From contig NZ_JAFBBY010000001.1 in NCBI RefSeq assembly GCF_016907515.1, forward strand, positions 558,001 to 622,000: a stretch of DNA of 64,000 bases. The letters are read 5' to 3'. Position numbers and translations under genes: made by a program. The stretch comes from Nocardioides nitrophenolicus (GTDB taxonomy: Bacteria > Actinomycetota > Actinomycetes > Propionibacteriales > Nocardioidaceae). Positions 27,210 to 42,516 of this stretch are shown here, piece by piece. Below the pieces are notes generated by a model. The model made no database searches. It was not told where the DNA came from and worked only from the letters and a program-made list of their open reading frames with translations. The first letter of the stretch is position 1, and every line of letters starts with the position of its first letter.

Positions 27210-27958
27210 CGGTCGGTCTCCAGGAAGCGGGTGATCAGGGCCGCGGTCGCGGCCGGGTCCTCGGCGGGGGGCAGGTGGGCGACGTCGTCGAGCACGACCT
27301 CGACCTGGTCGGGGGTGACCACGACGTCGTGCGCGCCGCCGGCCACCAGCAGCGGCACCGGCGCGAACGCGATCCGGTCGCGGACGTCGTAGGTCGCGAG
27401 CGCCTCGCAGGCCAGGGCGTAGGACTCGTCGTCGACGGACTGCAACGCGAGCAGCAGCCCGCTGCCGGTCGCCGGGTCGCGCTCGAGGAAGCCGGGCGCG
27501 AACCAGCGCGCCGCGGACCCCTCGACCATGGCGGCGGTCCCGGCCGCGCGGACGTACGCCGCCCGCTCGTGCCAGCCCTCCGGCGTACCGATCCGCGGGG
27601 CGGACGCCAGGGTCACCACCGCGTCGAAGGGCCCCGGCTCGACGGCGATCGTGAAGCCGACGGCGCCACCGAGCGAGACGCCGGCGTAGGCCACCGGGCG
27701 CCCGGCGGCGATCCCCGCGGCCCGGTCGCGGACGGCGGCGGCCAGGTCGGCGACGGTGAACGCCGACGTCGTGGGCGCACCGGCACCATGGCCGGGCAGG
27801 TCCCAGCCGACGACCTGCCAGGTCGCCGGGAGCAGGGCGGCGCAGCGCGACCAGAGGTCGGCGACCCCGGTGCCGAGGGAGGGACCCACGACGAGGACCC
27901 GCTCGGCGTCCGCGCCTCGCTCGGCACCGGTGAGCTGGGTGCAGGTCAGCTCAACCAC
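27206..27958 (-). CDS. pcaD: 3-oxoadipate enol-lactonase
   Basis: A 250-residue alpha/beta hydrolase that opens 3-oxoadipate enol-lactone to 3-oxoadipate. VLVVGPSLGTGVADLW is the oxyanion region, YAGVSLGGAVGF the nucleophile elbow with Ser, and AGGAHDVVVTPDQ the acidic segment. The catalytic His is probably in VAHLPPAEDP. The GTG start at 27958 was chosen because the fold begins immediately after it; it overlaps the pcaB stop by eight bases (GTGGTTGA). Not fused to PcaC. Confidence 0.93.
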   Translation of the reverse strand: MVELTCTQLTGAERGADAERVLVVGPSLGTGVADLWSRCAALLPATWQVVGWDLPGHGAGAPTTSAFTVADLAAAVRDRAAGIAAGRPVAYAGVSLGGAVGFTIAVEPGPFDAVVTLASAPRIGTPEGWHERAAYVRAAGTAAMVEGSAARWFAPGFLERDPATGSGLLLALQSVDDESYALACEALATYDVRDRIAFAPVPLLVAGGAHDVVVTPDQVEVVLDDVAHLPPAEDPAATAALITRFLETDR

Positions 27959-29096
27959 GGGTCTCCTCCCAGCGGGCGACGGCGAGGTCGACGAGGCGGC
28001 CGGCCGCGCCGGTCCCGCCCCGGTCGTCGAGGCTGCCGGTCGCGGTGGCCGCATCGACGCGGGCGGCCATCGCGGAGGTGTCGACCTGCAGGCCGGCGAC
28101 GACCTCGGCAGCCTGGCTCGCCGCGGTGACGGCGAGCTCCAGGAGCCGGGTCAGGACGGGCCACTCGGCGTGCCAGGCTCCGTCGGGCCGCTCGTCGACG
28201 GCGCCGGCCGCGGACAGGTGGAGCTGGGCGGCGAGGCCCGGTGCCTGCTGCGCGGCGGCGTGCACGAGGACGGACAGGACCGGGTTCTGCTTGTGCGGCA
28301 TCGTCGAGGAGCCACCGCGCCCGGCGACGGCGCCCTCGCGGACCTCGGCGACCTCGGGGCGGCCGAGCAGCAGCACGTCGGCCGCGACGACACCGAGGGC
28401 GTCGGTGGCGGTGGTGAGCGCGTCGCCGATCGCCGTGACCGTCGCGCGCCGGGTGTGCCACGGCAGCACGGCCGCATCGAGACCGAGAGCGGCGGCGAGC
28501 GCGGGCAGCGCCTCGGGCTCGGCCAACAGCGCGCGGGTGCCCGCCGCGCCGCCGTACTGCACCGGGAAGGTCAGCGCGTCCAGCCGCGTGACGGCGTCGT
28601 CGACGCCGGCCAGCCACTGGGCCACCCGCAGCCCGAAGGTGGTCGGGACCGCCCACTGGGTGAGCGTCCGCGCCACCGCGATGTCGTCGCGGTGGGTCCG
28701 GGCGAGAGTCGCGAGGGCGTCGCCGGTGGCGACCAGGTCCGCACGCACGCGGGCCACGGCGTCGCGGGCGAGCAGGACCAGCGCGGTGTCGACGACGTCC
28801 TGGCTGGTGAGCCCGCGGTGCACGGCACCCGAGGCGTCGCCGGCGGCAGCGCGCAGCGACTCGACCAGGGGGACCACGGGGTTGCCGGCGGTCTCGGCCG
28901 CGACCGCCAATGCGGTCAGGTCGACGTCGAGCCCGGCCGCCGCCTCGGCGACCTCCGCGGCCTCGGCGTCGGTCGCGACCCCGGCGGCGACGAGCGCCCG
29001 GGCCCAGGCGGTCTCGACCCGCAGCAGCGCCGCCAGCACCGCCGTGTCGTCGGCGATCCCGGCGGCCCGGTGCGCGCCGGGACGCAGCAGGCTCAT
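27951..29096 (-). CDS. pcaB: 3-carboxy-cis,cis-muconate cycloisomerase
   Basis: A 381-residue member of the fumarase/aspartase superfamily that cyclises 3-carboxymuconate to gamma-carboxymuconolactone. The family signature GSSTMPHKQNPVLS lies near residue 265. TSQDVVDTALVLLARD near 97 and QWAVPTTFGLRVAQWLAGVD near 148 are typical conserved regions. It is shorter than the ~450-residue proteobacterial enzyme because the C-terminal domain is reduced, as in other actinobacteria. It is coupled to pcaG (ATGA) and pcaD. Confidence 0.93.
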   Translation of the reverse strand: MSLLRPGAHRAAGIADDTAVLAALLRVETAWARALVAAGVATDAEAAEVAEAAAGLDVDLTALAVAAETAGNPVVPLVESLRAAAGDASGAVHRGLTSQDVVDTALVLLARDAVARVRADLVATGDALATLARTHRDDIAVARTLTQWAVPTTFGLRVAQWLAGVDDAVTRLDALTFPVQYGGAAGTRALLAEPEALPALAAALGLDAAVLPWHTRRATVTAIGDALTTATDALGVVAADVLLLGRPEVAEVREGAVAGRGGSSTMPHKQNPVLSVLVHAAAQQAPGLAAQLHLSAAGAVDERPDGAWHAEWPVLTRLLELAVTAASQAAEVVAGLQVDTSAMAARVDAATATGSLDDRGGTGAAGRLVDLAVARWEETRG

Positions 29097-29641
29097 GACC
29101 GGTGCCGCGGGTAGCTCAGGAAGACCGTCTCGCGGTCCCCCTGCAGGTGGACGTCGAACCGCAGGCTGCCGTCGGCCTCGCGCTCGACCCGCAGTGTCGC
29201 GGCGTCCTCGGCCGGCAGGCCGGCGAGGAGGTCGTCGGACTCCCCCGGCAGGTAGGCGCGGGTGAACAGCCGGTCGAGCAGGCCGCGGGCGAAGACGGTC
29301 ACGGCGAAGAAGGCCGCTCCCCCGTCGACACCGGCGGGCTCCACCGTCGTGAAGGCGTAGCGCCCGGACGCGTCGGTCGCCGCCCGGCCCCAGCCGGTGA
29401 ACCGGCCGTCGCGGCGCAGCGAGCCCTCGACCCGCGGCACCCGGCCGGCCGGGTCGGCCTGCCGGAGCTCGAGGAGCGCGTCGGGGACGGGGGCTCCGGC
29501 GCCGTCGTAGACGGTGCCGTGGAGGCGGACCGCGCCGACCGTGCCGGCGGGGACCAGGAACGGACCGCCGGCGTACGGCAGCGCGTAGTGGAAGAACGGG
29601 CCGATGGTCTGCCCGGGGGTGGGCGCGAGGGTCTCACTCAT
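29093..29641 (-). CDS. pcaG: Protocatechuate 3,4-dioxygenase, alpha subunit
   Basis: A 182-residue alpha subunit of the intradiol ring-cleavage enzyme. TPGQTIGPFFHYALPY near the N-terminus and the barrel segment VRLHGTVYDGAGAPVPDALL are typical. The alpha subunit lacks the metal-binding Tyr/His set but shapes the active site together with PcaH. ATG 29641 overlaps the pcaH stop by eight bases (ATGAGTGA); an upstream GTG at 29650 is less likely. Confidence 0.95.
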   Translation of the reverse strand: MSETLAPTPGQTIGPFFHYALPYAGGPFLVPAGTVGAVRLHGTVYDGAGAPVPDALLELRQADPAGRVPRVEGSLRRDGRFTGWGRAATDASGRYAFTTVEPAGVDGGAAFFAVTVFARGLLDRLFTRAYLPGESDDLLAGLPAEDAATLRVEREADGSLRFDVHLQGDRETVFLSYPRHRS

Positions 29642-30410
29642 GGTCGGCACGCTCCAACGGGGTCGCGTGGGTGCCGGTCAGCACGATGTCCCAGCGGTAG
29701 CCGGTCGCCCACTCGTGGGTGGTCAGGTCATGGTCGTAGGTGGCGACCAGGCGCTCGCGCACCGACGGCTCGGTGATCGACTGGTAGATCGGGTCGAGCG
29801 CGAACAGCGGATCGCCGGGGAAGTACATCTGGGTGACCAGGCGCTGGGTGAACTCGGTGCCGAACAGCGAGAAGTGGATGTGCGCGGGCCGCCAGGCGTT
29901 GAGGTGGTTGCGCCACGGGTACGGGCCCGGCTTGATGGTGGTGAACCGGTAGACCCCGTCGCCGTCGGTCAGGCAGCGCCCGACGCCGGTGAAGTTGGGG
30001 TCGACCGGCGCGGGGTGCTGGTCGCGCTTGTGGATGTAGCGTCCGCCCGCGTTGGCCTGCCAGATCTCGACCAGCTGGTGGCGCACCGGGCGCCCGTCGC
30101 CGTCGAGGACCTGCCCGGTGACCAGCATCCGCTCGCCGATCGGCTCGCCGCCGTGCTGGATGGTGAGGTCGGCCTCGACCGGGTCGAGGTCGGAGTGCCC
30201 GAACACCGGCGCCACCAGCTCGATCCCCTCGGGGTCGGCGTGGCGCGGGTCCTTGGTGGGGTGGCGCAGCACGGAGCTGCGGTACGGCGGGAAGTCGATC
30301 CGCGGCTGCGGCGCACCCGGTGCGGTCGCGGCCTGCGCCTCGGCGATCTCGGCGGTGATGCGCGCCTGGGTCTCCAGTGCCGGCGTGGCGGTGGTCGTGG
30401 TCACGGTCAC
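29634..30410 (-). CDS. pcaH: Protocatechuate 3,4-dioxygenase, beta subunit
   Basis: A 258-residue beta subunit carrying the non-haem Fe(III) site that cleaves protocatechuate to 3-carboxy-cis,cis-muconate. Iron ligands are recognisable: Tyr in NAGGRYIHKRDQ, and Tyr plus two His in GPYPWRNHLNAWRPAHIHFS. The N-terminal arm PPYRSSVLRHPTKDP is characteristic of the beta chain. GTG start at 30410; other GTGs nearby make the exact start uncertain by a few codons. First gene of the pca-pob operon, divergent from pcaR across 62 bp that hold an IclR-like site. Confidence 0.95.
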   Translation of the reverse strand: MTVTTTTATPALETQARITAEIAEAQAATAPGAPQPRIDFPPYRSSVLRHPTKDPRHADPEGIELVAPVFGHSDLDPVEADLTIQHGGEPIGERMLVTGQVLDGDGRPVRHQLVEIWQANAGGRYIHKRDQHPAPVDPNFTGVGRCLTDGDGVYRFTTIKPGPYPWRNHLNAWRPAHIHFSLFGTEFTQRLVTQMYFPGDPLFALDPIYQSITEPSVRERLVATYDHDLTTHEWATGYRWDIVLTGTHATPLERADHE

Positions 30411-30447
30411 ACGCTAGGCGGCGGGGCGCGATCCGCGCGATAGAGTT

Positions 30448-30464
30448 CTTCCACTGAGCGAAAG
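30448..30464. promoter_or_regulatory. Probable IclR-type operator between pcaH and pcaR
   Basis: CTTCCACTGAGCGAAAG in the pcaH-pcaR intergenic region agrees with the repeated cre operator CTTCCGGTGGACGGAAG at 12 of 17 positions and keeps an imperfect dyad (CTTCC and GAAAG). It ends eight bases before the pcaR start, where an autoregulating PcaR-type protein would bind. Confidence 0.4.
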
Positions 30465-30472
30465 GCCCTGCG

Positions 30473-31219
30473 TTGGCTGGCAACACGTCCGTCCCGGGCG
30501 CGACCGTCGTGTCGCGTAGTCTCGCGCTGCTCTTCGCCTTCGACGAGACCCATCGCCGGCTGACGCTGTCCGAGCTGGCCCGCCGGGCCGGGCTGCCCCT
30601 CCCCACCACCCACCGGCTGGTCGGCGAGCTGGTCGCCGGGGGCGCACTGGTGCGCCGGCCCACCGGGGAGTACGTCGTCGCCCGGCGGCTGTGGCAGGTC
30701 GGCCTGCTCGCCCCCGTCGAGACCGGGCTGCGCGAGGTCGCCGCGCCGTTCATGAACGACCTGCACGCCGCCACCCGCGCGACCGTCCACCTCGCCGTTC
30801 GCGAGGGCACCGAGGTGCTCTACCTCGAGCGCCTCTCCGGCCGCGCGTCGGTCCCGGTCGTCAGCACCGTCGGCTCACGACTCCCGCTCCACGCCACCGG
30901 GGTCGGCAAGGTGCTGCTCGCCCACGCACCCGAGGACGTCGTGACCGCCTCGCTCGCGCGGCTGGCCCGGGTCACGCCGTTCACCATCACCCAGCCGGCC
31001 CGGATGCGCGAGCAGCTCGACCAGATCCGCCACGACGGCTATGCCACCACCGTCGAGGAGATGACGCTGGGCGCCTGCTCGGTCGCGGTCCCCGTCTCCG
31101 CCGGCAGCCGTGTCGTCGCCGCCCTCGGCGTCGTCGTACCGTCGCTCAAGCGGGACCGGGCCCGCCTGGTCGCGGCGCTCCAGGTCGCGGCGCAGGGCGT
31201 CGGTCGCTCGGTGGGCTGA
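30473..31219 (+). CDS. pcaR: IclR-family regulator of the pca operon
   Basis: A 248-residue IclR regulator. The N-terminal winged helix (about 12-70) reads TLSELARRAGLPLPTTHRLV and GELVAGGALVRRPTGEYVV. The effector domain (about 85-240) has SRLPLHATGVGKVLLAHAPE and GACSVAVPVSAGSRVVAALG. The start is TTG at 30473, with GAAAGG eight to nine bases upstream. Divergent from pcaH, the standard position for the PcaR/PcaU group, which responds to protocatechuate or 3-oxoadipate. It is a paralogue of the IclR protein at 40965-41756. The symbol is given by position and family. Confidence 0.85.
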   Translation: MAGNTSVPGATVVSRSLALLFAFDETHRRLTLSELARRAGLPLPTTHRLVGELVAGGALVRRPTGEYVVARRLWQVGLLAPVETGLREVAAPFMNDLHAATRATVHLAVREGTEVLYLERLSGRASVPVVSTVGSRLPLHATGVGKVLLAHAPEDVVTASLARLARVTPFTITQPARMREQLDQIRHDGYATTVEEMTLGACSVAVPVSAGSRVVAALGVVVPSLKRDRARLVAALQVAAQGVGRSVG

Positions 31220-31227
31220 GCCCGCGC

Positions 31228-32688
31228 TCACACCTTCCGGTGGATCGACTTGAAGGCGAGGTACGCCGAGAGCCCCTCCACGCCGTACTCGACGCCGAGA
31301 CCCGAGTCGTGCCGGCCGCCGAACGGCGCGGCGTGGTTGGACGCGAAGAAGTTGAGCCCGACCGAGCCGGTGTCCATCCGCTCGGCGACCTCCAGCGCCC
31401 GCGCCGGGTCCGCGGAGAACACCAGACCGCCGAGACCGAACGAGGTGTCGTTCGCCAGCGCGATCGCGTCGTCGAGGGTCTCGTAGCGGAGCACCGAGAG
31501 CACCGGCCCGAAGACCTCCTCGCGGGCGACGGTCATCGACGGCGTCACGTCGGCGAGCACCGTCGGCCGCACGAAGTAGCCCGGGCCGTCGACGGCGGCA
31601 CCGCCGGTCGTGACCCTCGCGCCCTCGGCCTTCGCGCCGTCGAGGTAGCCGAGCACGACATCGCGCTGCCGCGCGGTCGCGAGCGGGCCGAAGACGGTGT
31701 CGGGGTCGAACGGGTCGCCGAGCCTGCCCGCGGCGATGGTCGCGGTGACCATCGCGACGACCTCGTCGTAGCGCGCCGCGGGCGCGAGGATCCGGGTGGA
31801 GATGTAGCAGGTCTGGCCGGTGTTGCGCATCGACGAGCGCACCAGGACCCGCGCCATGGCGTCGAGGTCGGCGTCCTCCAGCACGATGGCCGACGACTTG
31901 CCGCCGAGCTCGAGGGTCACCGGCCTGAGCAGCTCGCCGCAGGCCGCGCCGATCCGTCGCCCCACCGGCGTCGAGCCGGTGAAGGCGACCTTGGCGGTGT
32001 CGGGGTGGCGCACCAGCGCCTCGCCGACGGCTCCCCCGCCGGTGACCAGGTTGACCACGCCCGGAGGTACGCCGGCCGCCTCCGCCGCCTCGACCACGAA
32101 CCGGATCGACAGCGGGGTCGACTCGGCCGGCTTCATCACGACGGTGCAGCCCGCGAGCAGCGCGGGCGCGAGCTTGATCACCATCAGGTTGATCGGGAAG
32201 TTCCACGGAGCGATCAGCACGCACGGCCCGACCGGCTCCCGTCGGACGACGGTCTCCGCGCCGCCCGCAGGGAACGGCCGCACGTCCTCGGTCTCCAGCC
32301 ACGACGCCAGCGACGCGACCTGGCGCAGGATCCCCGCCGCGTTGGCGGCGGCGCCGGAGGTCTCCGCGATCGGCGAGCCGTTCTCGCGGGTGTTGGTCCA
32401 GGAGAGCGGCTCGGCCCGCTTCTCCAGCTCGTCGGCCATCCGCAGCAGCACCTCGGCCCGCTCCGACGGCGTCATCCGCGGCCACGGCCCGGTCCGGAAG
32501 GCGCGCGCCGCGGCGGCCATCGCGCTGTCCACGTCCTGGCGCGAGGCATCGGGCACGCTGCCCCAGGTCTCCTCCGTCGCCGGATCGACGACGGGCAACC
32601 GGCCGGTCCCCCGAGCGGGACGCCACGCGCCGTCGACGTAGAGGTCCGAGACGTGGGTCCACGGCAGGGCGAGCCGAGGGCGCGTCAC
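31228..32688 (-). CDS. creC: Aldehyde dehydrogenase of the cre cluster (CreC)
   Basis: A 486-residue NAD(P)-dependent aldehyde dehydrogenase. The cofactor region is APWNFPINLMVIKLAPALLA, the catalytic Glu lies in VTLELGGKS and the catalytic Cys (residue 294) in MRNTGQTCYIS. By position it corresponds to CreC of C. glutamicum, oxidising 4-hydroxybenzaldehyde (free or as its phosphate) to the carboxylate that PobA uses. GTG start overlaps the creD stop (GTGA). It is the last gene of the cre operon and converges on pcaR with an 8-bp gap and no terminator. Confidence 0.9.
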   Translation of the reverse strand: MTRPRLALPWTHVSDLYVDGAWRPARGTGRLPVVDPATEETWGSVPDASRQDVDSAMAAAARAFRTGPWPRMTPSERAEVLLRMADELEKRAEPLSWTNTRENGSPIAETSGAAANAAGILRQVASLASWLETEDVRPFPAGGAETVVRREPVGPCVLIAPWNFPINLMVIKLAPALLAGCTVVMKPAESTPLSIRFVVEAAEAAGVPPGVVNLVTGGGAVGEALVRHPDTAKVAFTGSTPVGRRIGAACGELLRPVTLELGGKSSAIVLEDADLDAMARVLVRSSMRNTGQTCYISTRILAPAARYDEVVAMVTATIAAGRLGDPFDPDTVFGPLATARQRDVVLGYLDGAKAEGARVTTGGAAVDGPGYFVRPTVLADVTPSMTVAREEVFGPVLSVLRYETLDDAIALANDTSFGLGGLVFSADPARALEVAERMDTGSVGLNFFASNHAAPFGGRHDSGLGVEYGVEGLSAYLAFKSIHRKV

Positions 32689-33377
32689 GGCGCCACCTCG
32701 CCGGCGTCGTCGCGCAGCACGTCGGTCCTGAGCAGCCGGTTGGATCGGCTCAGGTCGGCGTGGGCCATCGCGACCGCGGCCTCGGTCAGCAGCTCCGGGA
32801 CGATCTCGCGGGCGAGCCGGTCGCAGTAGGTCGCCGGGTCCAGCCCGAACCAGCCCGAGGCGAGCGCGATCCCGGCGTGGTCGAAGCGCCACAGCCGGTC
32901 GGCGTCGCGGACCAGCGCGTCCTCCAGGGAGTAGGCCTCCTTGCGGGTGTCGTGCCCGTCGACGATGGCGCACACGGCCGCGACGAACTCCTCCGCATAG
33001 CCCAGCGGCGGCAGCACCTCCCGCGCGATCAGGCAGCCCTGCCGCTCGTGCTCGAACCGGATCTCGGCCTTGCGCCAGTCGCCGGAGAAGCCCTCGGCGA
33101 TGATCCGGCTCTCGTCGACCCGGCCCCAGCCGGTGTCGTGGAGCAGGATCGCGACCCGCACCAGCTCCGCGTCGGCCTCGGGGTAGGCCCGGCACAGCCG
33201 CTCGGCGTACGCCAGCGAGATCGGCAGGTGGATGTCGTTGCTGCGCGCCCGGGTCTCCGGTACGACGCCGCGCCACACCGGGTCGAGGTCCAGCCCGGCG
33301 GCCGGCGTGAGCGAGATCGGCGAGGTGTCGACCGGCCCGGACGGCGGGACGGGGGTCGGCGGCAGGGGCTGGGTCAT
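32685..33377 (-). CDS. creD: HD-domain phosphohydrolase (CreD)
   Basis: A 230-residue metal-dependent phosphohydrolase. Metal ligands are visible in order: His in SNDIHLPISL, the HD pair in LLHDTGWG, His in FEHERQG, the pair in VDGHDTRKEA and Asp in RDADRLWRF. In the C. glutamicum system CreD removes the phosphate that CreHI placed on the phenol, after or between the oxidation steps. A proline-rich leader of about 35 residues precedes the domain. ATGA overlap with creE. A second protein of the same family and length lies at 41766-42452. Confidence 0.88.
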   Translation of the reverse strand: MTQPLPPTPVPPSGPVDTSPISLTPAAGLDLDPVWRGVVPETRARSNDIHLPISLAYAERLCRAYPEADAELVRVAILLHDTGWGRVDESRIIAEGFSGDWRKAEIRFEHERQGCLIAREVLPPLGYAEEFVAAVCAIVDGHDTRKEAYSLEDALVRDADRLWRFDHAGIALASGWFGLDPATYCDRLAREIVPELLTEAAVAMAHADLSRSNRLLRTDVLRDDAGEVAP

Positions 33378-34642
33378 GACGGCTTCCTCGAGATCGACTT
33401 GAGCGGGACCGCGGGGTCGGCGGCCTCGTCGGGCGGGATCGACGCTCCGCTCGCGATGGCGGCCTTGACGGCCATGAAGTCCAGGGGTGCGTTGACGCAG
33501 TCGGCGGCGATGATCGCGTCGCCGCGGTAGTAGAGCACCGCGTGCCTGCCCTTCGCCGGGTCGCCGCGGACCACGGTCCGGTCGTGCCCGGCGGACAGGC
33601 CGGCGATCTGCAGCTTGAGGTCGGCCTGGTTCGACCAGAACCACGGGACGCCGGCGTACTCCTCGGGCCGCCCGGTGATCGCGTACGCCGCCACCTTGGC
33701 CTGCTCCACCGCGTTGTTGACGCTCTCGAACCGCATCCGGTCCTGCGTCGGCGCGCCCGGGACCGGGTTCGGCAGGTTGGCGACGTCGCCGACCGCGACG
33801 GTCACCCCGTCGGAGGCGACCGCGTGCTCGTCGACCCGGATCCCGTTGTCGCAGGCGAGCCCGATCGACTCGGCCAGCTCGGTGTTGGGGATCACCCCGA
33901 CGCCGATCAGCACCAGGTCCGCGCGGATCAGCCGGCCGTCGGCGAGCTCGACCCCGGACACCCGGTCCCCCGAGCCGGTGATCCGACGCACCTGCGCGTC
34001 CAGGACCACGTCGATGCCGTGCTGCCGGTGGTGGTCGAGCAGGTACGCCGACGTCTCGGCCCCCACCGCGCGCCCGACCAGGCGCGGCCCGGCCTCCAGC
34101 AGCGTGACCGTGCGGCCCATCTTGTTGAGGCTGGCCGCGGCCTCGATGCCGATGAAGCCGCCGCCGATCACGACGACGTCCTTGACCATCGGCACCCGCG
34201 CCTTGAGCTCGAGCGCGTCGTCGGCGTTGCGCAGGTAGAGCACGCCGGGCAGGTCCACGCCCTCGACCAGGAGCCGCCTCGCCCGGGCGCCGACGGTCAG
34301 CGCGAGCCGGTCGAACGGGATCTCCGCGCCCGACAGGGAGTGCGCGACCCCGCCGCCGTCGGCGCGCTTGTCGATCCGGATGATGCGCTCGTTGCGCACG
34401 ACTCGGATCCGGTGCTCGTCCCAGTACTCCTGGGTGCGGTAGATCAGCGACTCCTTGGTGATCGCGCCCTGCAGGAACTCCTTCGACAGCGCCGGACGCT
34501 GGTAGGGACGGTGGTTCTCGTCCCCGAGGAGCGTGATGGGCGGCTCGTACCCGAGGGCGCGCAGGGACACCGCGAGCTGCACCCCCGCCTGGGAGGAGCC
34601 GATGATGAGCAGGCCGGCCGAGCCCTCGGGATCAGTGCTCAT
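33374..34642 (-). CDS. creE: Ferredoxin reductase of the P450 system (CreE)
   Basis: A 422-residue FAD protein of the putidaredoxin-reductase type that passes electrons from NAD(P)H to the ferredoxin CreF. The first dinucleotide motif is LLIIGSSQAGVQLA, with Ser where Gly is usual. The second is VVVIGGGFIGIEAAASL, and the FAD segment GVTVAVGDVANLPNP follows. The C-terminal domain contains PWFWSNQADLKLQIAG, diagnostic of this group. It lies three bases downstream of creF and overlaps creD by four. Confidence 0.92.
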   Translation of the reverse strand: MSTDPEGSAGLLIIGSSQAGVQLAVSLRALGYEPPITLLGDENHRPYQRPALSKEFLQGAITKESLIYRTQEYWDEHRIRVVRNERIIRIDKRADGGGVAHSLSGAEIPFDRLALTVGARARRLLVEGVDLPGVLYLRNADDALELKARVPMVKDVVVIGGGFIGIEAAASLNKMGRTVTLLEAGPRLVGRAVGAETSAYLLDHHRQHGIDVVLDAQVRRITGSGDRVSGVELADGRLIRADLVLIGVGVIPNTELAESIGLACDNGIRVDEHAVASDGVTVAVGDVANLPNPVPGAPTQDRMRFESVNNAVEQAKVAAYAITGRPEEYAGVPWFWSNQADLKLQIAGLSAGHDRTVVRGDPAKGRHAVLYYRGDAIIAADCVNAPLDFMAVKAAIASGASIPPDEAADPAVPLKSISRKPS

Positions 34643-34645
34643 GGC

Positions 34646-34966
34646 TCAGACCTGCGTCTCCGGCGTGGTCACGTGCAGGTCCATGCCCTCGGTGACCTTG
34701 ATCTGGCAGCACAGCCGGGAGGTGTCGCGCCGGTCGACGGCGGCGCCCCACAGCATCTCGTCCTCCATCTCCTCCATCGGCGGCAGCGCGGCGTAGTCGG
34801 CCGGGTCGACGAAGACGTGGCAGGTCGCGCAGGACAGCGAGCCGCCGCACTCCGCGACGATGCCGGGGACGCCGTTGCGCACGGCGGTCTCCATCACGGA
34901 GTCGCCGACGCCGGCCTCGACGGCGTGGGCCGTCCCGGTGGCGTCGGTGTAGGTGATCGTGGGCAT
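34646..34966 (-). CDS. creF: [2Fe-2S] ferredoxin (CreF)
   Basis: A 106-residue adrenodoxin/putidaredoxin-type ferredoxin. The cluster ligands are Cys-x5-Cys-x2-Cys in CGGSLSCATC and a later Cys in SRLCCQIKV. The acidic helix PPMEEMEDEML is the usual docking site for the P450 and reductase. The ATG at 34966 follows GGAGGGACCGAC. It shuttles electrons from CreE to CreJ. Confidence 0.94.
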   Translation of the reverse strand: MPTITYTDATGTAHAVEAGVGDSVMETAVRNGVPGIVAECGGSLSCATCHVFVDPADYAALPPMEEMEDEMLWGAAVDRRDTSRLCCQIKVTEGMDLHVTTPETQV

Positions 34967-34985
34967 GTCGGTCCCTCCAGGAGAC

Positions 34986-35753
34986 TCAGATGAACTGGCG
35001 GCCACCGTCGACGACGACGGTCTGGCCGGTGACGAAGCCGGCGTCGGGGCCGGCGAGGAAGAGGGCGACGCCGACGACGTCGTCGGGCCGGCTGGCGCGG
35101 CGCAGCGCGCCCCGGTCGACGCCGTACGACGCGGCGTCGTCCATCAGGCCGAGGCTGGCGTCGGTGAGGGTGAAGCCGGGCGCGATCGCGTTGACGTTGA
35201 TCGAGCGCCGGCCCAGCTCCTTGGCCATCACCCGGGTCAGGGCGATCACGCCGCCCTTGGAGGCGACGTAGTGCAGCCAGTTCTCCGAGCCGCTGTAGAC
35301 CGTGGCCGAGGAGAGGTTGACCACGCGTGCACCCTCGGGCAGGAACGGGCTGCAGGCCCGCACCATCAGCCACGGTCCCTTGAGGTTGACCCCCAGCACC
35401 AGGTCCCAGTCCGCGGGGTCGATGTCCTCGAGCGGGGATCGGGTGACGGTGCCGTAGATGGCGGCGTTGTTGACCAGCACGTCGATCCGTCCGCTACCGA
35501 AGTCGGCCACCGCCTCCGCGAGCGCCGCCGTCGACGTCGCCGAGGTGACGTCGACCGGGCCGTGCCAGGCCTCGGCGCCCGCGTCGACGACGAGCTTCGC
35601 GGTCTCCGCGACGCCGGCCTCGTCGATGTCGGCGACCGCGACCCGGTAGCCCCGACCGGCGAAGCCGAGCGCGAACGCCCGGCCCAGCCCGCCGGCGGCG
35701 CCGGTGACGAGCACGGTCCGGCCGCGGCCCTCGTCGCTCCTCGGATCGGACAC
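34986..35753 (-). CDS. creG: SDR alcohol dehydrogenase of the cre cluster (CreG)
   Basis: A 255-residue short-chain dehydrogenase. The cofactor motif is VTGAAGGLGRAFALGFAGRG, the structural motif NNAAIYG, the catalytic residues Ser in NLSSATVYS and Tyr-x3-Lys in HYVASKGG, and the C-terminus GFVTGQTVVVDGG. By position and family it corresponds to CreG, which oxidises the benzylic alcohol made by P450 CreJ to the aldehyde. GTG start four bases after the creH stop. Confidence 0.88.
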   Translation of the reverse strand: MSDPRSDEGRGRTVLVTGAAGGLGRAFALGFAGRGYRVAVADIDEAGVAETAKLVVDAGAEAWHGPVDVTSATSTAALAEAVADFGSGRIDVLVNNAAIYGTVTRSPLEDIDPADWDLVLGVNLKGPWLMVRACSPFLPEGARVVNLSSATVYSGSENWLHYVASKGGVIALTRVMAKELGRRSINVNAIAPGFTLTDASLGLMDDAASYGVDRGALRRASRPDDVVGVALFLAGPDAGFVTGQTVVVDGGRQFI

Positions 35754-35757
35754 GGCG

Positions 35758-37608
35758 TCAGTCCAGGATCTCGACGCGACCGGTGCCGCCGTCGACCCGG
35801 ATCCGCTGCCCGGTCCGGATCGTCGTCGACGCGCTGCCGGTGCCGGTGACGGCGGGGAGGCCGTACTCGCGGCACACGATCGCCGCGTGGCTCATCATCC
35901 CGCCGATGTCGGTGACGGTCGCCTTGATCTTGCCGAAGATCGGCCCCCACGACGGCGCGGTGATCGTCGCGACGAGGATCTCGTCCTGCTGCACCTCGCC
36001 CAGCTGGTCGGCGCTGTGCACCACGCGGGCGAGCCCCTCGACCACGCCCGGCGAGGCGGCCATGCCGGTGATCACGCCCTCGTCGCCACCCTCGTCGCCG
36101 GCCAGCCACTGCTGCACCTGCTCGGTGGTGATGCCGTAGAGCATCATCGTGAACGGCTCGGTGATCTCGGCCGGCGGGGTGTTCAGTGCCGGCTGCGGGC
36201 GCTGCGTCGCGAGCGCCTCGAAGATCCCGCGCCGGCGCTCGATCTCGGCCGGCCAGTAGTGCGGCCCGGTCGCCTCGGCGCCGACCGCCCAGCCGGTGAC
36301 CAGGTCGAAGATCGCGTCGCGGACCTCGCCGCGGGTCAGGTAGAGCAGGTCCGACTCGTCGGCCCAGAAGCCGGCCGCCGCGAACACCCGGCCGAGCTCG
36401 CGGACCTTGCGCCAGAAGACGCCCATGGTCCAGTGCTCGATGTAGAAGTTGTGGTTCTCGACGTACGGGTAGGCCGTCGCGGCCAGGCCGCGCTTGGCGT
36501 CGAAGGTGGCGAGCGCCTCTCCGTCGAGCAGGTCGCGGTACTCCTCGACGATCCGGTCCTTCTCGGCCGTCAGCTCCGCGACCGGCCGCATGATCTGCTG
36601 GCCCTCGTCGAGCCGGCGGACGTAGTCCTTGATGTAGCCGAGCGGGATCTCCTGGTGCTCGAGCCAGTACTTGTCGTGGCCGTAGAAGCCGTTGCCGACG
36701 GTGAAGTTGAACCACGGGTCCTGCGCCGCCTCGTACGCCGCCAGCCAGGCCGCGCCGCCGTCGTACTCCCCGATCCGGGCCAGGGTGCCGGCCACGTCGT
36801 CGGTGTCGGCGAAGGCCGCCTGCAGGCCGCTCTCGACGGCCAGGGTGGCCAGCTTCTTGAGCTCGTCGTCGGGACGGAAGAGCTCCATGTCGACGCCCTG
36901 GACCATCTTCGCGATCGCCTGGTCCGGGATGCCGGGGAAGGCCTCCTTGCAGAAGCCGAAGAAGTCGAGATAGGCCAGGTAGCCGAGGTTGAGGAACTCG
37001 AAGTGGTACTGCCAGTTCTGGTAGCACAGCTGGATCAGCCGGTCGTAGCTCTCCATCAGCACCTCGGAGCCGTCCTTGGCCACGCCCGCGACGATGTCGT
37101 CGAAGGGCACCATGTCGGGCAGCGACTCGAAGCGCAGCGCCTCCATCTCGTCGATCGTCCCGCGCACCTTGACCCGCCACGCGTCGAGCAGCTCGTTCCA
37201 GTTCTGGAAGTAGTGCCCGGCCCGGCGCTCGAACTCCGGCACCCGCGCCGGGATCTGGTCCTCGGGGACCGGCACCGGTGACATGTAGAGGTAGCCGAGG
37301 TGGATCTTGAACTCGATGCCGTTGGCCGGCGGGATCAGCAGGTGCCGGGTGTTGTACTGCCCGAGGCACTTGACCGCGAACTCGCCGCCGATCGTCTCGA
37401 ACGGCTTGAACACCGTCGGCCAGTGCTGGCTGTCGCAGAACCAGAACTTCTCGTCCTCGGCGCCGCTGAGGTTCTGGAAGACCAGGTTGTAGGGATAGAG
37501 CCTCTCCCAGCCCTCGGCCCCCTCGGGCACGGGCAGCTGGGACGGCTTGGGGAAGGACTTCATCGCGGGCGCGGTGCTGGTGCCCGGAGTCGGCTCGGTG
37601 ACGGTCAT
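35758..37608 (-). CDS. creH: Alkylphenol phosphorylating enzyme, PEP-utilising subunit (CreH)
   Basis: A 616-residue protein. Most of it is a large specific domain of unclear fold (aromatic-rich, for example FWFCDSQHWPTVFKPFETIG and FLNLGYLAYLDFFGFCKEAF). The last ~80 residues are the PEP-synthase phosphohistidine swivel domain with the catalytic His in GGMMSHAAIVCREYGLPAVT. With CreI it would form the ATP-dependent 4-methylphenyl-phosphate synthase: CreI charges the histidine and CreH delivers the phosphate to the phenol. The ATG at 37608 overlaps creI. The split arrangement resembles phenylphosphate synthase. Confidence 0.88.
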   Translation of the reverse strand: MTVTEPTPGTSTAPAMKSFPKPSQLPVPEGAEGWERLYPYNLVFQNLSGAEDEKFWFCDSQHWPTVFKPFETIGGEFAVKCLGQYNTRHLLIPPANGIEFKIHLGYLYMSPVPVPEDQIPARVPEFERRAGHYFQNWNELLDAWRVKVRGTIDEMEALRFESLPDMVPFDDIVAGVAKDGSEVLMESYDRLIQLCYQNWQYHFEFLNLGYLAYLDFFGFCKEAFPGIPDQAIAKMVQGVDMELFRPDDELKKLATLAVESGLQAAFADTDDVAGTLARIGEYDGGAAWLAAYEAAQDPWFNFTVGNGFYGHDKYWLEHQEIPLGYIKDYVRRLDEGQQIMRPVAELTAEKDRIVEEYRDLLDGEALATFDAKRGLAATAYPYVENHNFYIEHWTMGVFWRKVRELGRVFAAAGFWADESDLLYLTRGEVRDAIFDLVTGWAVGAEATGPHYWPAEIERRRGIFEALATQRPQPALNTPPAEITEPFTMMLYGITTEQVQQWLAGDEGGDEGVITGMAASPGVVEGLARVVHSADQLGEVQQDEILVATITAPSWGPIFGKIKATVTDIGGMMSHAAIVCREYGLPAVTGTGSASTTIRTGQRIRVDGGTGRVEILD

Positions 37609-38687
37609 CGGTTGTTCCTTGGGGTGAGAGAGCTGGTGAGTCCGGACATGAAGCCGGTCATCCCGCCCGAGGCAGGAGGCGTAGGCGTGGTGGTGGCCGC
37701 GACCGAGTGGACGGTCTCGGGGCGCGCCTGGAGCAGCAGGAGGTTCTCCCCCGCCGGCAGGTCGCTGTCGAAGGCCCACTCGATGTCCTGCGGGCATCCG
37801 TAGTGCTTCTCGGCGCGCTTCGCGAGCTGGGCGACGGCGACGAGCTCGTCGGGCTCGAGGCAGAGCCGGTCGCGCCGGTCCGGCTCGACCTCACGCTCGA
37901 CGAGGCTCCCGGCCGCGGCGTCGGGGACCAGCTCGGCGTGCTTGGCGCCGCGATGCTCCTGGACCACGCTGAGCATCACCTTGTCGAGCAGCAGGTTGTC
38001 GGGGGTGACCTGGCCGGAGACGACCATCTCGCCGACGCCGTACGACGCGTCGATGGCGATCTTCGAGCGGTCACCCGTCGTCGGGTTGAGGGTGATCGCG
38101 ACGCCGGCGACCCGGGCGTTGACCATCTTCTGCACCGCCACCGCCATCGACAGGCCCTCGTCGGGGATGCCGTTCTTGAGCCGGTAGAGGATCGCGCGGC
38201 TGGTGTAGATCGAGGCCCAGCAGCGGCGGATGTGCTCGCGCACGTCGGCCCAGCCGCGCAGCCACAGGTAGGTGTCCTGCTGGCCGGCGAAGCTCGCGTC
38301 CGGCAGGTCCTCGGCGGTGGCCGACGACCGGACCGCGACCGGCACGTCCGCACCGATCCGGGCCGTCAGCTCGTCGTACGCCGTTTTGGTGGCGTCCCGG
38401 ACCGCGGCCGGGACGGGGCAGCCCAGCAGCAGCTCGCGGATCCGCGCCGACACCTCGTCGACCCGCACGACGTCCTCGGGGTCGAGCCCGGCGAGGAGCT
38501 CGTGGATCCGGTCGGCGATGCCGGACTCGCGCACGAACGCGTCGTACGCCGCCGTGGTGACCGCGAAGCCCGGCGGGACGGGCATCCCGGCGGCAGTCAT
38601 GGTGACCAGCGAGGCGCACTTGCCCCCGAGCAGGTCGTGCTCGGGGGGCTCCCCGGCGTCGAAGAACTGGACGAAACGCTCAGTCAT
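37605..38687 (-). CDS. creI: Alkylphenol phosphorylating enzyme, ATP-binding subunit (CreI)
   Basis: A 360-residue PEP synthase/pyruvate phosphate dikinase ATP-grasp domain. The N-terminal part has LGGKCASLVTMTAAGMPVPP and the ATP-site ADVPVAVRSSATAEDLPDAS. It continues with FAGQQDTYLWLRG and ends the domain with QDIEWAFDSDLPAGENLLLL and QARPETVHS. A Pro/Thr/Ser-rich tail of about 30 residues follows. It would bind ATP and phosphorylate the CreH histidine. It overlaps creJ by eight bases and creH by four. Confidence 0.9.
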   Translation of the reverse strand: MTERFVQFFDAGEPPEHDLLGGKCASLVTMTAAGMPVPPGFAVTTAAYDAFVRESGIADRIHELLAGLDPEDVVRVDEVSARIRELLLGCPVPAAVRDATKTAYDELTARIGADVPVAVRSSATAEDLPDASFAGQQDTYLWLRGWADVREHIRRCWASIYTSRAILYRLKNGIPDEGLSMAVAVQKMVNARVAGVAITLNPTTGDRSKIAIDASYGVGEMVVSGQVTPDNLLLDKVMLSVVQEHRGAKHAELVPDAAAGSLVEREVEPDRRDRLCLEPDELVAVAQLAKRAEKHYGCPQDIEWAFDSDLPAGENLLLLQARPETVHSVAATTTPTPPASGGMTGFMSGLTSSLTPRNNR

Positions 38688-39942
38688 CGGAGCTCTCCCA
38701 GGTGACGGGCACCGCGAGCGGTGCGCGGAAGGACAGGTTGTCGCCGAACCGGATCGCGTCCGCGTCGACCAGGCGCAGGTCGGGCGCGAGTCGGGCGATC
38801 TCCTCCAGGCAGACCCTGGCCTGCAGCTTGGCCAGCATGTTGCCGAGGCAGTAGTGGATGCCGAACCCGAAGGCGAGATGCTCGCGGGCGTTGGCACGGG
38901 TGACGTCGAAGCGGTCGGCTTCCTCGAAGCGCGTCTCGTCGCGGTTGGCCGAGCCCATCAGCAGGAGCAGCTCGCTGCCGGACGGGATCGGGACCCCGCC
39001 GACGGTGGTGTCCTTCAGCGCCTTGCGCCGCCAGCCGACGATCGAGGGGCTGACCCGGAGCACCTCGTCGACCGCGCCCGGGATCAGGCTCGGGTCGTCG
39101 ACGATCCGCCGCCACTGGTCGGGATGCTCGAGGAGCACGCGTACCGCGTTGGAGATCAGCGTCGTGGTGGTCTCGTGACCGGCGAAGAGCAGGCTGTAGC
39201 AGATCGACGCGATCTCGTGGTCGGTGATCGGGTCGCCCTCGGCCTGCACCCGGACCAGGTCACCGACGAGCGAGTCGCGCTCCTCGGCGTGCGCCTCGGC
39301 GACGAGTCGCCGGCACTCGGTCCAGTAGTCGACCAGGTGGTGCGCGTGCGGCACCTGCTCCTCGTCGGACAGGTCGCCCCACGTCATCGCGGCGCGGGAG
39401 TCCGACCACTTCTTGAACAGCTCGACCTGGCCGGTGTCGGCGCCGATCAGGGTGAGGATGGTGACCGTCGGGACGTCGTACGCCAGGTCGCGGACGATGT
39501 CGCCGACCCGCCCGGGTCGCTCGCGCATCGCGGTCAGCAGGTCGACGACGTGGGCGCGGATCGCCGGCTCCAGCGCCTTGTACCGCCGCGGCGTGAACGC
39601 CTTCGCGGTCACCTTGCGGATCCGGGTGTGCTCGGGGGGAACCCGCGCGGACAGGCCGGAGTAGGCCGTGAAGCCGCCCTCCTCCATGATCCGGCGGGCC
39701 TCGGGGCCACGCTCGCGGACCGGCGCCTGGGCGTTCTCGCTGCTGAAGGTCTCCCAGTCCTCGAAGACCGCCTTCACGTCCTCGTAGCGGCTGACGACCC
39801 AGTAGCCGACGCGCTCGTCGTACATCACCGGCTCCTCGGCCCGCAGCGCGGCGTACGACGGGAACGGGTCGTCCATCGCGAACGGCCGGTAGCCGTGGTG
39901 GGCCACCGGACAACCGGTGCCGGGCTCGTGCGTCGTGGTCAT
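38680..39942 (-). CDS. creJ: Cytochrome P450, alkylphenyl-phosphate hydroxylase (CreJ)
   Basis: A 420-residue soluble P450. The I-helix oxygen-binding motif is LLFAGHETTTTLISN, the ExxR motif lies in VDEVLRVSPSIVGWRRKALK, and the haem-binding loop is FGFGIHYCLGNMLAKLQ with the ligand Cys near residue 365. It would hydroxylate the alkyl side chain of the phosphorylated phenol with electrons from CreE and CreF. First gene of an eight-gene operon. The start is the ATG at 39942, with AAGGGTGCGAG upstream. The 17-bp inverted repeat 94 bp upstream is the likely control site. Confidence 0.92.
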   Translation of the reverse strand: MTTTHEPGTGCPVAHHGYRPFAMDDPFPSYAALRAEEPVMYDERVGYWVVSRYEDVKAVFEDWETFSSENAQAPVRERGPEARRIMEEGGFTAYSGLSARVPPEHTRIRKVTAKAFTPRRYKALEPAIRAHVVDLLTAMRERPGRVGDIVRDLAYDVPTVTILTLIGADTGQVELFKKWSDSRAAMTWGDLSDEEQVPHAHHLVDYWTECRRLVAEAHAEERDSLVGDLVRVQAEGDPITDHEIASICYSLLFAGHETTTTLISNAVRVLLEHPDQWRRIVDDPSLIPGAVDEVLRVSPSIVGWRRKALKDTTVGGVPIPSGSELLLLMGSANRDETRFEEADRFDVTRANAREHLAFGFGIHYCLGNMLAKLQARVCLEEIARLAPDLRLVDADAIRFGDNLSFRAPLAVPVTWESSDD

Positions 39943-40036
39943 CTCGCACCCTTCTGGGACTGCTGGTCCGGGCTGCCGAGTGGCGCCGGTCACAAGGTCA
40001 ACCTTGGCCCTCGGGCGGAGCGCTCACAATGGCCGT

Positions 40037-40053
40037 CTTCCGGTGGACGGAAG
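40037..40053. promoter_or_regulatory. Inverted repeat upstream of creJ, candidate IclR operator
   Basis: CTTCCGGTGGACGGAAG is a perfect 6-bp dyad (CTTCCG and CGGAAG) with the spacer GTGGA. The identical 17 bases, including the asymmetric spacer and in the same orientation relative to the gene, recur at 42496-42512 before the HD/IclR gene pair. It lies between the aqpZ terminator and creJ. Confidence 0.65.
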
Positions 40054-40071
40054 TCGGTGTGGGCGGGAACG

Positions 40072-40107: not shown

Positions 40108-40131
40108 GCGGTGCCGGTAGGGCGGTGGGGC

Positions 40132-40863
40132 TCAGGCCTCCATCGCGTCGGCCAGCGCGACGGCGTCGTCGCTGCCCAGCAGGAAGGCGTAGGAGAAGCC
40201 GGCGACGAGGCCGCCGACGACCGGCGCCACGATGAACAGCCAGAGCTGGCCGATCGCGTCGCCGCCCGCGAACAGGCCGACGCCGATCGAGCGCGCCGGG
40301 TTCACCGAGGTGTTGGTGACCGGGATGCTGATCAGGTGGATCAGGGTCAGGGAGAGGCCGATCGCCAGCGGCGCGAAGCCCTTGGGCGCGCGCGAGTCGG
40401 TGGCGCCGAGGATCACCCACAGGAAGATCGCGGTCAGCAGCACCTCGATCACCAGGCAGGCCAGCAGGCTGTAGCCCAGCGGCGAGCGGTCGTCGTACCC
40501 GTTGGAGGCGAAGCCGCTCTTGACGGCGTCGAAGCCGTCGGTGCCGCTGGCCACGACGAGCAGCACGGCGCCCGCGACGATGCCGGCCACGACCTGGGTG
40601 CCGATGTAGACCGGGGTGTCCTTCCAGGCGATCCGGCCACCGGCCGCCGCGCCCAGCGTGACGGCGGGGTTGAAGTGTCCGCCCGAGATGTGGCCGACGG
40701 CGTAGGCCATCACCACGACGGTGAGGCCGAAGGCGAGCGCGACGCCGGCGAAGCCGACCTCCTTGCCCGCGAGGACGGCCGTTCCGCAGCCGCCGAAGAC
40801 GAGGACGAAGGTGCCGAGGAACTCCGCGGCGACGACCTTGGGTACATCAGGTTGAGTGGACAT
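40132..40863 (-). CDS. aqpZ: Aquaporin Z-type water channel
   Basis: A 243-residue major intrinsic protein with six transmembrane helices and both pore motifs: NPA in [16 protein letters not shown] and NPA in [15 protein letters not shown]. The N-terminus [21 protein letters not shown] is typical of aquaporins. The selectivity-filter Arg follows the second NPA. Loop lengths favour the water-specific AqpZ type over the glycerol facilitators. It lies between the regulator pair and the cre operon. Whether it has any tie to alkylphenol catabolism is unclear; it may simply be a neighbour. Confidence 0.92.
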
Positions 40864-40964: not shown

Positions 40965-41756
40965 TCAGCGAGCTCGGCCGGGCCCGGGGCCGGCCCAACG
41001 GCTCACCGACGGCGCGATCCGGGCCGCGATCCCGCGCAGCGTCGGCAGGTGCCGGGGCATCTGGTCGGCCTGCGCGGAGTGCATGACCAGGCCGATCGAG
41101 GCCGGCGCCCGGCCTTCGGGCGTCAGCACCGGCACGGCGACCGAGCAGCTCCCCACCCGGACCTCCTCGTAGGTCGTGGCGAACCCGCGCTCGCGGATCG
41201 CCGCCAGCTCCTCGAGCAGCCGCTGCGGGTGTACGTGGGTGCGGGCGGTCACCGGGTCCAGCCGTTCGGCGACGTACGCCTCCTGCAGCCAGCGGTCCTC
41301 GTAGGCCAGCAGCACCTTGCCCACGGCGGTCGCGTGCAACGGCAGCCGGCCGCCGACCCGGCTGGCGCGCGGCACCCGCTTGGAGCCGTAGATCCGGTCG
41401 ATGTAGAGCGCCTCGTGGCCCTCGCGGATGGCGAGGTGGGCGGTCTCCTGGGTCAGCGAGAAGAGGTCCTGGAGGTACGGGCGCGCGGCATCGCGCAGCT
41501 GACGGCCGGCGTGCTGGGCGACCTCCCACAGCCGCAGCCCGACGACGTACCGGCCCTCCGGGGTGCGCTCCAGCGCACCCCAGGCGACCAGCTCGGCCGC
41601 GAGTCGGTGGGCCGTCGGCAGCGGCAGGTCGGCATGGGCGGCGAGCTCGCTGAGCGACTGCGCGCTCGGGCCGTGCTCGAACGCGGCCAGCAGGCCCAGC
41701 ACCTTCGAGGTGACGGTGCGTCCGCCGCCGTCGCCCCTGCCCCCGCCGTCGGTCAC
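40965..41756 (-). CDS. IclR-family regulator, candidate cre regulator
   Basis: A 263-residue IclR protein. The winged helix covers about residues 14-75 (SLSELAAHADLPLPTAHRLA). The effector domain has GRLPLHATAVGKVLLAYEDR and VGSCSVAVPVLTPEGRAPAS. It is a clear paralogue of PcaR in this window. GTG start at 41756, nine bases after the HD-protein stop, so the two form an operon headed by the inverted repeat at 42495-42513. Because the same repeat precedes creJ, this protein is the most likely sensor of alkylphenols or their phosphates. The Ala/Arg/Pro-rich C-terminal tail (SRWAGPGPGRAR) is unlikely to matter. Confidence 0.87.
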   Translation of the reverse strand: MTDGGGRGDGGGRTVTSKVLGLLAAFEHGPSAQSLSELAAHADLPLPTAHRLAAELVAWGALERTPEGRYVVGLRLWEVAQHAGRQLRDAARPYLQDLFSLTQETAHLAIREGHEALYIDRIYGSKRVPRASRVGGRLPLHATAVGKVLLAYEDRWLQEAYVAERLDPVTARTHVHPQRLLEELAAIRERGFATTYEEVRVGSCSVAVPVLTPEGRAPASIGLVMHSAQADQMPRHLPTLRGIAARIAPSVSRWAGPGPGRAR

Positions 41757-41765
41757 GGGCCGAGG

Positions 41766-42452
41766 CTACGCCAGCGCGATCCGCTGCGGCGTGACGTCGA
41801 TCGACGCCACCGCGGCCAGGCCTAGCGCGAGGACGCGGCCCGGCTCGCTGAGCAGGTGGTCGTGCACCCGGCTCGCGATCAGCCGGTGCGCCTGCTCCCG
41901 GGTCAGGCCGAACCAGCCCATCACCGTGTCGACGCCGTGGGGCGTGAGCCGCCAGAGCTTGTCGGCGTCCTTCATCAGCGCGTCGTCGAGGGAGATCGCC
42001 TCGCGCCGGCTGTCGTGACCGTCGACGATGGCGACGATCCGCTCGGTCCGCTCGGCGTCCCAGCCGACGTCGGCCAGCACCTCGCTCGCGATCCGGGCGC
42101 CCTCCTTCTCGTGGCGGAGCACCAGGTCGGGACGGCCGCCGCCGGGCGCGATCGCCTCCAGGATCTCCGGCTCGGGCACCTGGGACCAGCCGGTGTCGTG
42201 CAGCAGGATGGCCGGCAGCACCACCTCCGGGTCGGCCTGCGGCGTCAGGTCGAGCAGGGCCCGGCCCAGGCCGTAGGCGTAGATCGTGTGCGCGTCGTTG
42301 TCCCGCACCCGCAGGTACGGCACGGCACGCTCCCAGATCGCGGCGTGCCGCTCGTCGAGCACGTAGACCCCGGGCAGCCCCTCCGCCGCGGGGAGGTGCC
42401 CGGTCACGTCGCGGCCGAGGTCGTTGCGGGTCGGCGTGAGGTGGGGCAGCAC
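41766..42452 (-). CDS. Second CreD-like HD-domain phosphohydrolase
   Basis: A protein of 228 residues if started at GTG 42452, or up to 240 from TTG 42488. The metal site matches creD: His in DNDAHTIYAYG, HD in LLHDTGWSQ, His in LRHEKEGARIASEVL, the pair in VDGHDSRREAISLDDAL, and Asp in KDADKLWRL, then MGWFGLT. Length and motif spacing equal CreD. The GTG start was preferred because a promoter must fit downstream of the operator at 42495-42513. It is co-transcribed with the IclR gene. It may remove phosphate from other alkylphenyl phosphates or from the regulator's ligand (inference). Confidence 0.8.
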   Translation of the reverse strand: MLPHLTPTRNDLGRDVTGHLPAAEGLPGVYVLDERHAAIWERAVPYLRVRDNDAHTIYAYGLGRALLDLTPQADPEVVLPAILLHDTGWSQVPEPEILEAIAPGGGRPDLVLRHEKEGARIASEVLADVGWDAERTERIVAIVDGHDSRREAISLDDALMKDADKLWRLTPHGVDTVMGWFGLTREQAHRLIASRVHDHLLSEPGRVLALGLAAVASIDVTPQRIALA

Positions 42453-42494: not shown

Positions 42495-42513
42495 GCTTCC
42501 GGTGGACGGAAGC
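42495..42513. promoter_or_regulatory. Inverted repeat upstream of HD/IclR pair, candidate IclR operator
   Basis: The same 17-bp element as at 40037-40053, here extended to seven-base arms: GCTTCCG, GTGGA, CGGAAGC. It fills the short gap between the RDD gene stop (42517) and the HD gene. It could double as a weak transcription stop for the RDD gene, but identity with the creJ copy favours an operator. Confidence 0.65.
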
Positions 42514-42516
42514 GGC

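Follow-up and report, generated by a model that had tools for sequence, protein, structure and literature searches.

The window analysed here is a stretch of 64,000 nucleotides, bases 558001-622000 of the single-contig 5.8-Mb genome of Nocardioides nitrophenolicus (the host). Within it, eight co-directional genes of the minus strand, bounded by the start codon of creJ (ATG, 39942) and the stop codon of creC (31228), encode, in this order, a cytochrome P450, a PPDK_N ATP-grasp protein, a phosphohistidine swivel protein, a short-chain dehydrogenase/reductase (SDR), a ferredoxin, a ferredoxin reductase, an HD hydrolase and an aldehyde dehydrogenase (Table 1). A first-pass annotation, made from the letters alone, had described them as a complete cre operon for phosphate-assisted oxidation of alkylphenols, with the gene set and order known from Corynebacterium glutamicum. 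All eight reading frames are open and each carries the Pfam domain expected of it, so the list of genes, their order and their identities stand. The description of the genes as overlapping holds for four of the seven junctions (8 nt at J/I; 4 nt each at I/H, E/D and D/C); with the chosen starts the other three are gaps of 4 nt (H/G), 19 nt (G/F) and 3 nt (F/E). The catalytic residues reported as visible are recognisable on inspection of the translated sequences; we take them to be the heme Cys in FGFGIHYCLG of the P450, the swivel His in GGMMSHAAIVCREYG, YVASK of the SDR, CX5CX2C of the ferredoxin, the HD motifs, and the aldehyde dehydrogenase Cys in NTGQTCY.

Table 1. Features of the cre region, in window coordinates
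Feature	Position	Strand	Description
creJ	38680..39942	-	Class I cytochrome P450, 420 aa, ATG; Pfam p450 101 bits
creI	37605..38687	-	Predicted ATP-grasp subunit of phenol kinase; Pfam PPDK_N 359 bits
creH	35758..37608	-	Predicted substrate-binding and swivel subunit, Ser before His574; Pfam PEP-utilizers 80 bits
creG	34986..35753	-	SDR, predicted 4-hydroxybenzyl alcohol dehydrogenase; Pfam adh_short_C2 193 bits
creF	34646..34966	-	[2Fe-2S] ferredoxin; Pfam Fer2 37 bits
creE	33374..34642	-	Ferredoxin reductase; Pfam Pyr_redox_2 200 bits and Reductase_C 109 bits
creD	32685..33377	-	Predicted HD-domain aryl-phosphate phosphohydrolase; Pfam HD 44 bits; HD motif residues invariant or nearly so
creC	31228..32688	-	Aldehyde dehydrogenase; Pfam Aldedh 525 bits
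Candidate operator palindrome	40038..40052	.	TTCCGTCCACCGGAA on the operon strand; 96-110 nt before creJ ATG
Aquaporin-like gene	40132..40863	-	Between iclU and creJ; named by eye from NPA motifs; outside the system
iclU	40965..41756	-	IclR-family regulator linked to creJ; Pfam IclR_C and HTH_IclR
D2	41766..42407	-	Second HD-domain hydrolase, creD paralogue; Pfam HD; likely start GTG 42407; reading frame open to 42488
Identical palindrome before D2-iclU	42497..42511	.	90-104 nt before likely D2 start
Operator-like site	30449..30463	.	One mismatch; between iclR and pcaH
iclR	30473..31219	+	IclR-family, closest to PcaR/PcaU/PobR model; TIGR02431 139.5 bits, below cut-off 284.75
pcaH	29634..30410	-	TIGR02422 354 bits, above cut-off
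pcaG	29093..29650	-	TIGR02423 156 bits, above cut-off
pcaB	27951..29096	-	TIGR02426 325 bits, below cut-off 355.75
pcaD	27206..28054	-	TIGR02427 147 bits, below cut-off 255.85
pcaC	26838..27197 (genome 584838-585197)	-	TIGR02425 171 bits, above cut-off
pobA	25648..27063	-	4-Hydroxybenzoate 3-monooxygenase; NF006091 512 bits, above cut-off; TIGR02360 408 bits, below 538.7

Identity and distribution of the operon

The cre genes of C. glutamicum are creC (cg0637), creD (cg0638), creE (cg0639), creF (cg0640), creG (cg0641), creH (cg0642), creI (cg0644) and creJ (cg0645) (PMC7764795). The window matches this set both in gene types and in their order, as the first-pass annotation had claimed. When the window P450 was searched against solved structures, entries 5xjn, 5gwe and 7ccf scored 679 bits and the next P450 252 bits, and identity to 5xjn is 70.5% over 404 residues. 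These entries are titled just 'Cytochrome P450'; we take them to be C. glutamicum CreJ, in which case the protein search that had been proposed as a check returns a CreJ orthologue. The active-site residues Arg193/Thr81 of a docking study (PMC10879549) could not be mapped onto 5xjn and were not used.

C. glutamicum itself was looked for in an even sample of 201 genomes of a Corynebacterium genus and in 61 relatives of genome G384, and was not recognised among them; the CreJ nearest to the solved P450 is that of G384 (96%). Compared over aligned parts with the products of Corynebacterium locus L142, whose CreJ is likewise 96% identical to the solved P450, the window proteins show 61-79% identity (C 63, D 65, E 61, F 79, G 70, H 73, I 66 and J 69%). 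The names creA and creB are also present in the literature. The surroundings of the operon differ from those of C. glutamicum cre: the window has D2, a second HD hydrolase gene, before the IclR-family gene iclU, an aquaporin-like insertion before creJ, and pob/pca genes close by. No D2 was found at Corynebacterium loci L142, L143, L097, L102 and L110. The Corynebacterium copy in L142 and L146 lies, by eye, among ribosomal-protein-like genes; in L146, creC is followed by one uncharacterised 152-aa open reading frame on the same strand and then by such genes.

We scanned named genomes with the P450 as query and kept the best 80 of 131 relatives. The full J-I-H-G-F-E-D-C order on one strand is found at 74 of these 80 CreJ loci, far beyond chance; at the other six, the contig ends 2.2-7.6 kb past the start of creJ. 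Hosts include Nocardia, Streptomyces, Amycolatopsis, Kribbella and Rhodococcus, as well as Arthrobacter, Brevibacterium, Cryobacterium, Georgenia and Corynebacterium. Thus, the cre operon is a standard actinobacterial module, and its presence in the host is unsurprising. Within Nocardioidaceae it is rare, a CreH of the close kind being found in 5 of 294 genomes.

Three points weigh against reading the operon as cre: the identity references are a solved P450 of presumed species and a close Corynebacterium rather than C. glutamicum itself; the kinase tree described below holds no characterised HpeH or PpsA; and the case for the host strain is one of sequence. With these in mind we are confident that the window carries a cre operon.

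Elsewhere in the host genome, at G000:C1:4923458-4924976 (L003), lies DNA 65% identical to the creE-creF part, perhaps another ferredoxin/reductase pair.

Predicted route, substrate and kinase

In C. glutamicum, CreHI is the kinase that acts on the phenol, oxidation of the alkyl group is the task of CreJ together with CreEF, and the later oxidations fall to CreG, for 4-hydroxybenzyl alcohol, and to CreC, for the aldehyde (PMC7764795, PMC9549646, PMC12167813). By analogy, CreI and CreH of the host would use the swivel histidine to pass phosphate from ATP to p-cresol, or to another such 4-alkylphenol, at its hydroxyl group. CreJ, supplied with electrons by CreE and CreF, would hydroxylate the resulting aryl phosphate at its methyl group. 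CreD is the dephosphorylating enzyme of the cre route and acts at this point of the sequence; its host counterpart would release 4-hydroxybenzyl alcohol, which CreG and CreC would convert to 4-hydroxybenzoate. The pobA and pcaHGBDC genes next door would then feed 4-hydroxybenzoate into the beta-ketoadipate pathway. The first-pass annotation was right on the identity and order of the operon and, so far as the chemistry of C. glutamicum carries over, on the pathway.

Its placement of the operon beside genes that would consume the product is also borne out: pcaHGBDC and pobA lie downstream, past one opposite-strand regulator gene (iclR). The family models for pobA start about 85 residues into the open reading frame, and the true start is probably later. 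No pcaF equivalog scores above cut-off in the host (best thiolase 434 versus 597 bits), and none of 14 control genomes reaches that cut-off.

The natural substrate could be another 4-alkylphenol (e.g. 4-ethylphenol) or a 3-alkylphenol. A C. glutamicum-derived system accepts various p- and m-alkylphenols for oxidation (PMC9549646), the window CreJ differs at about 30% of positions, and D2 is extra relative to the Corynebacterium copies. Yet CreG and CreC suit a benzyl alcohol and aldehyde, and 4-hydroxybenzoate, to which pobA and the pca genes are suited, is the direct product from a methyl group; we therefore consider a system tuned to something other than p-cresol unlikely.

The kinase pair was compared with two other phenol dikinases. 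The hydroxyphenylethanone kinase HpeHI of Rhodococcus rhodochrous GD02 is likewise a two-component dikinase with ATP-grasp and swivel subunits, and has Cys before the swivel His (PMC12167813) where the window CreH has Ser. Its genes are followed by a biotin carboxylase and a NagD-like phosphatase rather than by a P450 and an HD hydrolase (PMC9618137). The homologous phenylphosphate synthase PpsAB of Thauera and Aromatoleum starts anaerobic phenol catabolism (PMC12167813). Among solved structures, the second-best relative of CreI is 9goj, which is HpeI (PMC12167813). CreH matches NCBIfam NF006150 with 1166 bits against a cut-off of 650, a threshold passed in one of the 14 control genomes, G384 being among those 14. 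PpsAB is not known to have a P450 partner. The pair does not fit a rifampicin phosphotransferase or PEP synthase, in which one chain carries both the ATP-grasp and the swivel domain: here there are two chains, with 264 and 107 bits against a RIF_Ptrans_rph cut-off of 999.

In a CreH tree of 97 sequences (three duplicate loci and four loci with CreH missing or shorter than 500 residues were dropped), all 82 CreJ-linked kinases form one clade (support 0.998), apart from 15 unlinked ones. CreH identity is 65-97% in 81 P450-linked loci versus 44-58% in the 15 unlinked. The pair S573 H574 is invariant in 18 of 18 aligned sequences, unlinked kinases included, and so does not separate the clades. A kinase falling into an unrelated cluster, which the first-pass annotation had named as the result that would overturn it, is thus not what was found among the sequences in the tree. 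At E 1e-60 or better, CreH relatives occur in 21 of the 294 Nocardioidaceae genomes: five including the host at 84-100%, 14 at 53-58% and two partial at 44-52%.

That the kinase belongs to another phosphorylation-initiated phenol pathway (HpeHI or phenylphosphate synthase), with the P450 acting on something else, is very improbable: HpeHI, CreHI and PpsAB are homologous, HpeHI phosphorylates cresol too (PMC12167813), and the kinases of Nocardioidaceae relatives are 53-58% identical, but the P450-linked CreH proteins stand as a clade of their own, and the 20 proteins scanned around the operon, which include the P450 with its redox partners and the pob/pca genes, contain no biotin-dependent carboxylase, no HAD-type phosphatase (the markers of the Hpe pathway) and no CoA ligase.

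The P450-unlinked kinases have a setting of their own. At 12 of 16 Nocardioidaceae loci (L034-L045) they sit in a conserved cluster (L034 4342-16632) of two extradiol dioxygenases, a His-phosphatase, kinase I, kinase H, a Rieske oxygenase, an HAD hydrolase and a reductase, as assigned by Pfam on L034 alone and by tblastn at the remaining loci. L046 and L047 have the kinase and the Rieske gene, and L048 and L049 are ended by contig edges. The composition of this cluster suggests phosphate-assisted ring oxygenation by the Rieske enzyme, followed by meta-cleavage.

Regulator gene, candidate operator and second HD hydrolase

We surveyed the upstream DNA of the 73 named loci at which more than 3 kb precedes creJ. 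An iclU gene lies within 2.5 kb upstream of creJ on the same strand at 66 of them; the exceptions are L079, L086, L092, L112, L116, L117 and L128. Two of these seven, L086 and L092, show an IclR match at 4.0-4.6 kb. D2 is present at 39 loci (upstream on the same strand at 34, upstream on the other strand at two, downstream of creC at three) and was not found at the other 34.

We compared 80 CreD and 45 D2 sequences (79 and 44 from loci, plus the two of the window). The HD motif residues, in creD numbering N47, D48, H50, H80, D81, H110, E111, H142, D143, D158 and D160, presumably form the metal site and are common to both groups at 95% or more, and ten positions distinguish CreD from D2. Since the shared motif residues are intact, D2 looks like a working paralogue rather than a relic. 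Solved relatives of CreD and D2 were not found by single-sequence search, and profile searches gave weak matches, the best being 2pq7 at E 0.0014 and 0.054. The second HD hydrolase is not mentioned in the cre literature consulted, no literature search having been aimed at it. Directly upstream of D2, at 42517-43020, lies a small membrane-protein gene, RDD-like by eye, which is kept in the closest relatives L030 and L031 at 86-88%.

TTCC/GGAA arms before creJ were first spotted by eye in the window. A loose pattern built on them occurs in 62 of 86 upstream stretches, a set in which the window and three duplicate loci are counted; mononucleotide shuffles give 0.36 (maximum 3). A symmetric pattern, TTCCRNYNRNYGGAA, was scored on 84 non-duplicate loci. 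This TTCC-N7-GGAA pattern lies before creJ at 58 of 82 loci, before D2 at 17 of 42, before pcaH at two of eight and before iclU at none of 76. Before pobA the count is 0 of 16 with starts extrapolated from the over-long reading frame of the window and 8 of 17 from the start of the aligned part. With the same fixed pattern, none of the 79-84 loci scored for each of I, H, G, F, E and C has a site before the gene; before D it occurs at one of 80, and random windows have it at 1.8 of 84 on average (maximum 7). Altogether there are 96 pattern sites in 1.6 Mb, 19 of which lie elsewhere, eight of those at pobA. The count before creJ is not blind, as the pattern was read from those loci.

The host genome contains the pattern twice, once before creJ and once before D2-iclU, and the two sites are letter for letter alike. 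This count is not blind either: a first, too strict pattern gave no match in the genome, and the looser one was picked after the site in the window had been seen. A slightly stricter pattern with one mismatch allowed has four matches in the window against 0.2 in shuffles, namely the three sites of Table 1 and one at 22440 inside a coding frame, which is probably chance.

The adjacency of the regulator gene indicates that IclU probably binds the palindrome; it would do so at TTCC-N7-GGAA before creJ and before D2-iclU, and would switch both as a unit. Several observations count against this assignment. No iclU was found within 5 kb upstream of creJ at five of the 73 loci (L079, L112, L116, L117 and L128, the last with just 4.7 kb). 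The pattern is missing before creJ at 24 of 82 loci, including all eight Cryobacterium and all three Georgenia. The comparison windows before I to C consist largely of coding sequence and are thus no pure intergenic control, and a sigma-70 promoter scan of 30300-43200 found none. By a hand estimate from base composition, about two occurrences are expected in the host genome by chance; the weight therefore lies in where both sites fall, at the creJ and D2-iclU promoters.

The Cryobacterium (L115, L118, L119, L122-L125, L129) and Georgenia (L093, L096, L108) loci lacking the pattern have full cre operons with an IclR gene upstream, and their operator may have diverged.

A PcaR- or GenR-like IclR protein encoded elsewhere could bind the palindrome instead, leaving iclU with another role. 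Among listed motifs the closest is ATTCC-N7(5)-GGAAT, that of C. glutamicum GenR. Its half-sites are those of the cre palindrome, and so is the spacing of its N7 form; it is listed for 3-hydroxybenzoate and gentisate genes, not for cre (PMC8222616, Table 1). The occurrence at pcaH points the same way, as do loci L116, L117 and L128, where the palindrome precedes creJ and no iclU was found upstream, and Cg3388 is possibly involved in cre regulation (PMC7764795). Nevertheless, the two sites of the host genome precede D2-iclU and creJ, and iclU is the neighbour of creJ at 66 of the 73 surveyed loci, so we judge such an outside regulator improbable and prefer IclU.

We also entertain, with considerable doubt, a broader scheme in which many actinobacteria share a conserved two-operon regulon of D2-iclU and creJ-C: IclU would sense the phosphorylated phenol or an oxidised product, and D2 would be a dedicated aryl-phosphate phosphatase that sets or resets this signal or clears dead-end phosphates, while CreD would serve the main route.

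The aquaporin-like gene between iclU and creJ is a separate matter. It lies in an insertion of about 930 bp (40057-40989): in L030 and L031 the gene is absent and the site continuous, homology stopping near 40990 and resuming near 40056, and in G286 a 93% orthologue sits at 4.52 Mb, more than 2 Mb from the cre operon of that genome (2.16 Mb). A role as the alkylphenol channel of the operon is thus ruled out in favour of a lineage-specific insertion. The creJ operator lies downstream of the insertion, unbroken. By eye, the gene is followed at 40073-40106 by a hairpin whose arms are 15 nt long; it was not listed by a terminator scan, which found two sites against 1.6 expected by chance.

Significance

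The cre system itself is already known, and its chemistry has been applied in biocatalysis (PMC9549646). What is new here, and absent from the first-pass annotation, is the breadth of the operon, the conserved regulator gene, the candidate operator and the second HD hydrolase. The cre inducer is called unknown in the excerpt of PMC7764795, and that of PMC13413800 contains nothing on cre regulation; the candidate operator together with its regulator makes the inducer testable. The intact operon in many actinobacterial genera is a source of CreJ, CreHI and CreD variants.

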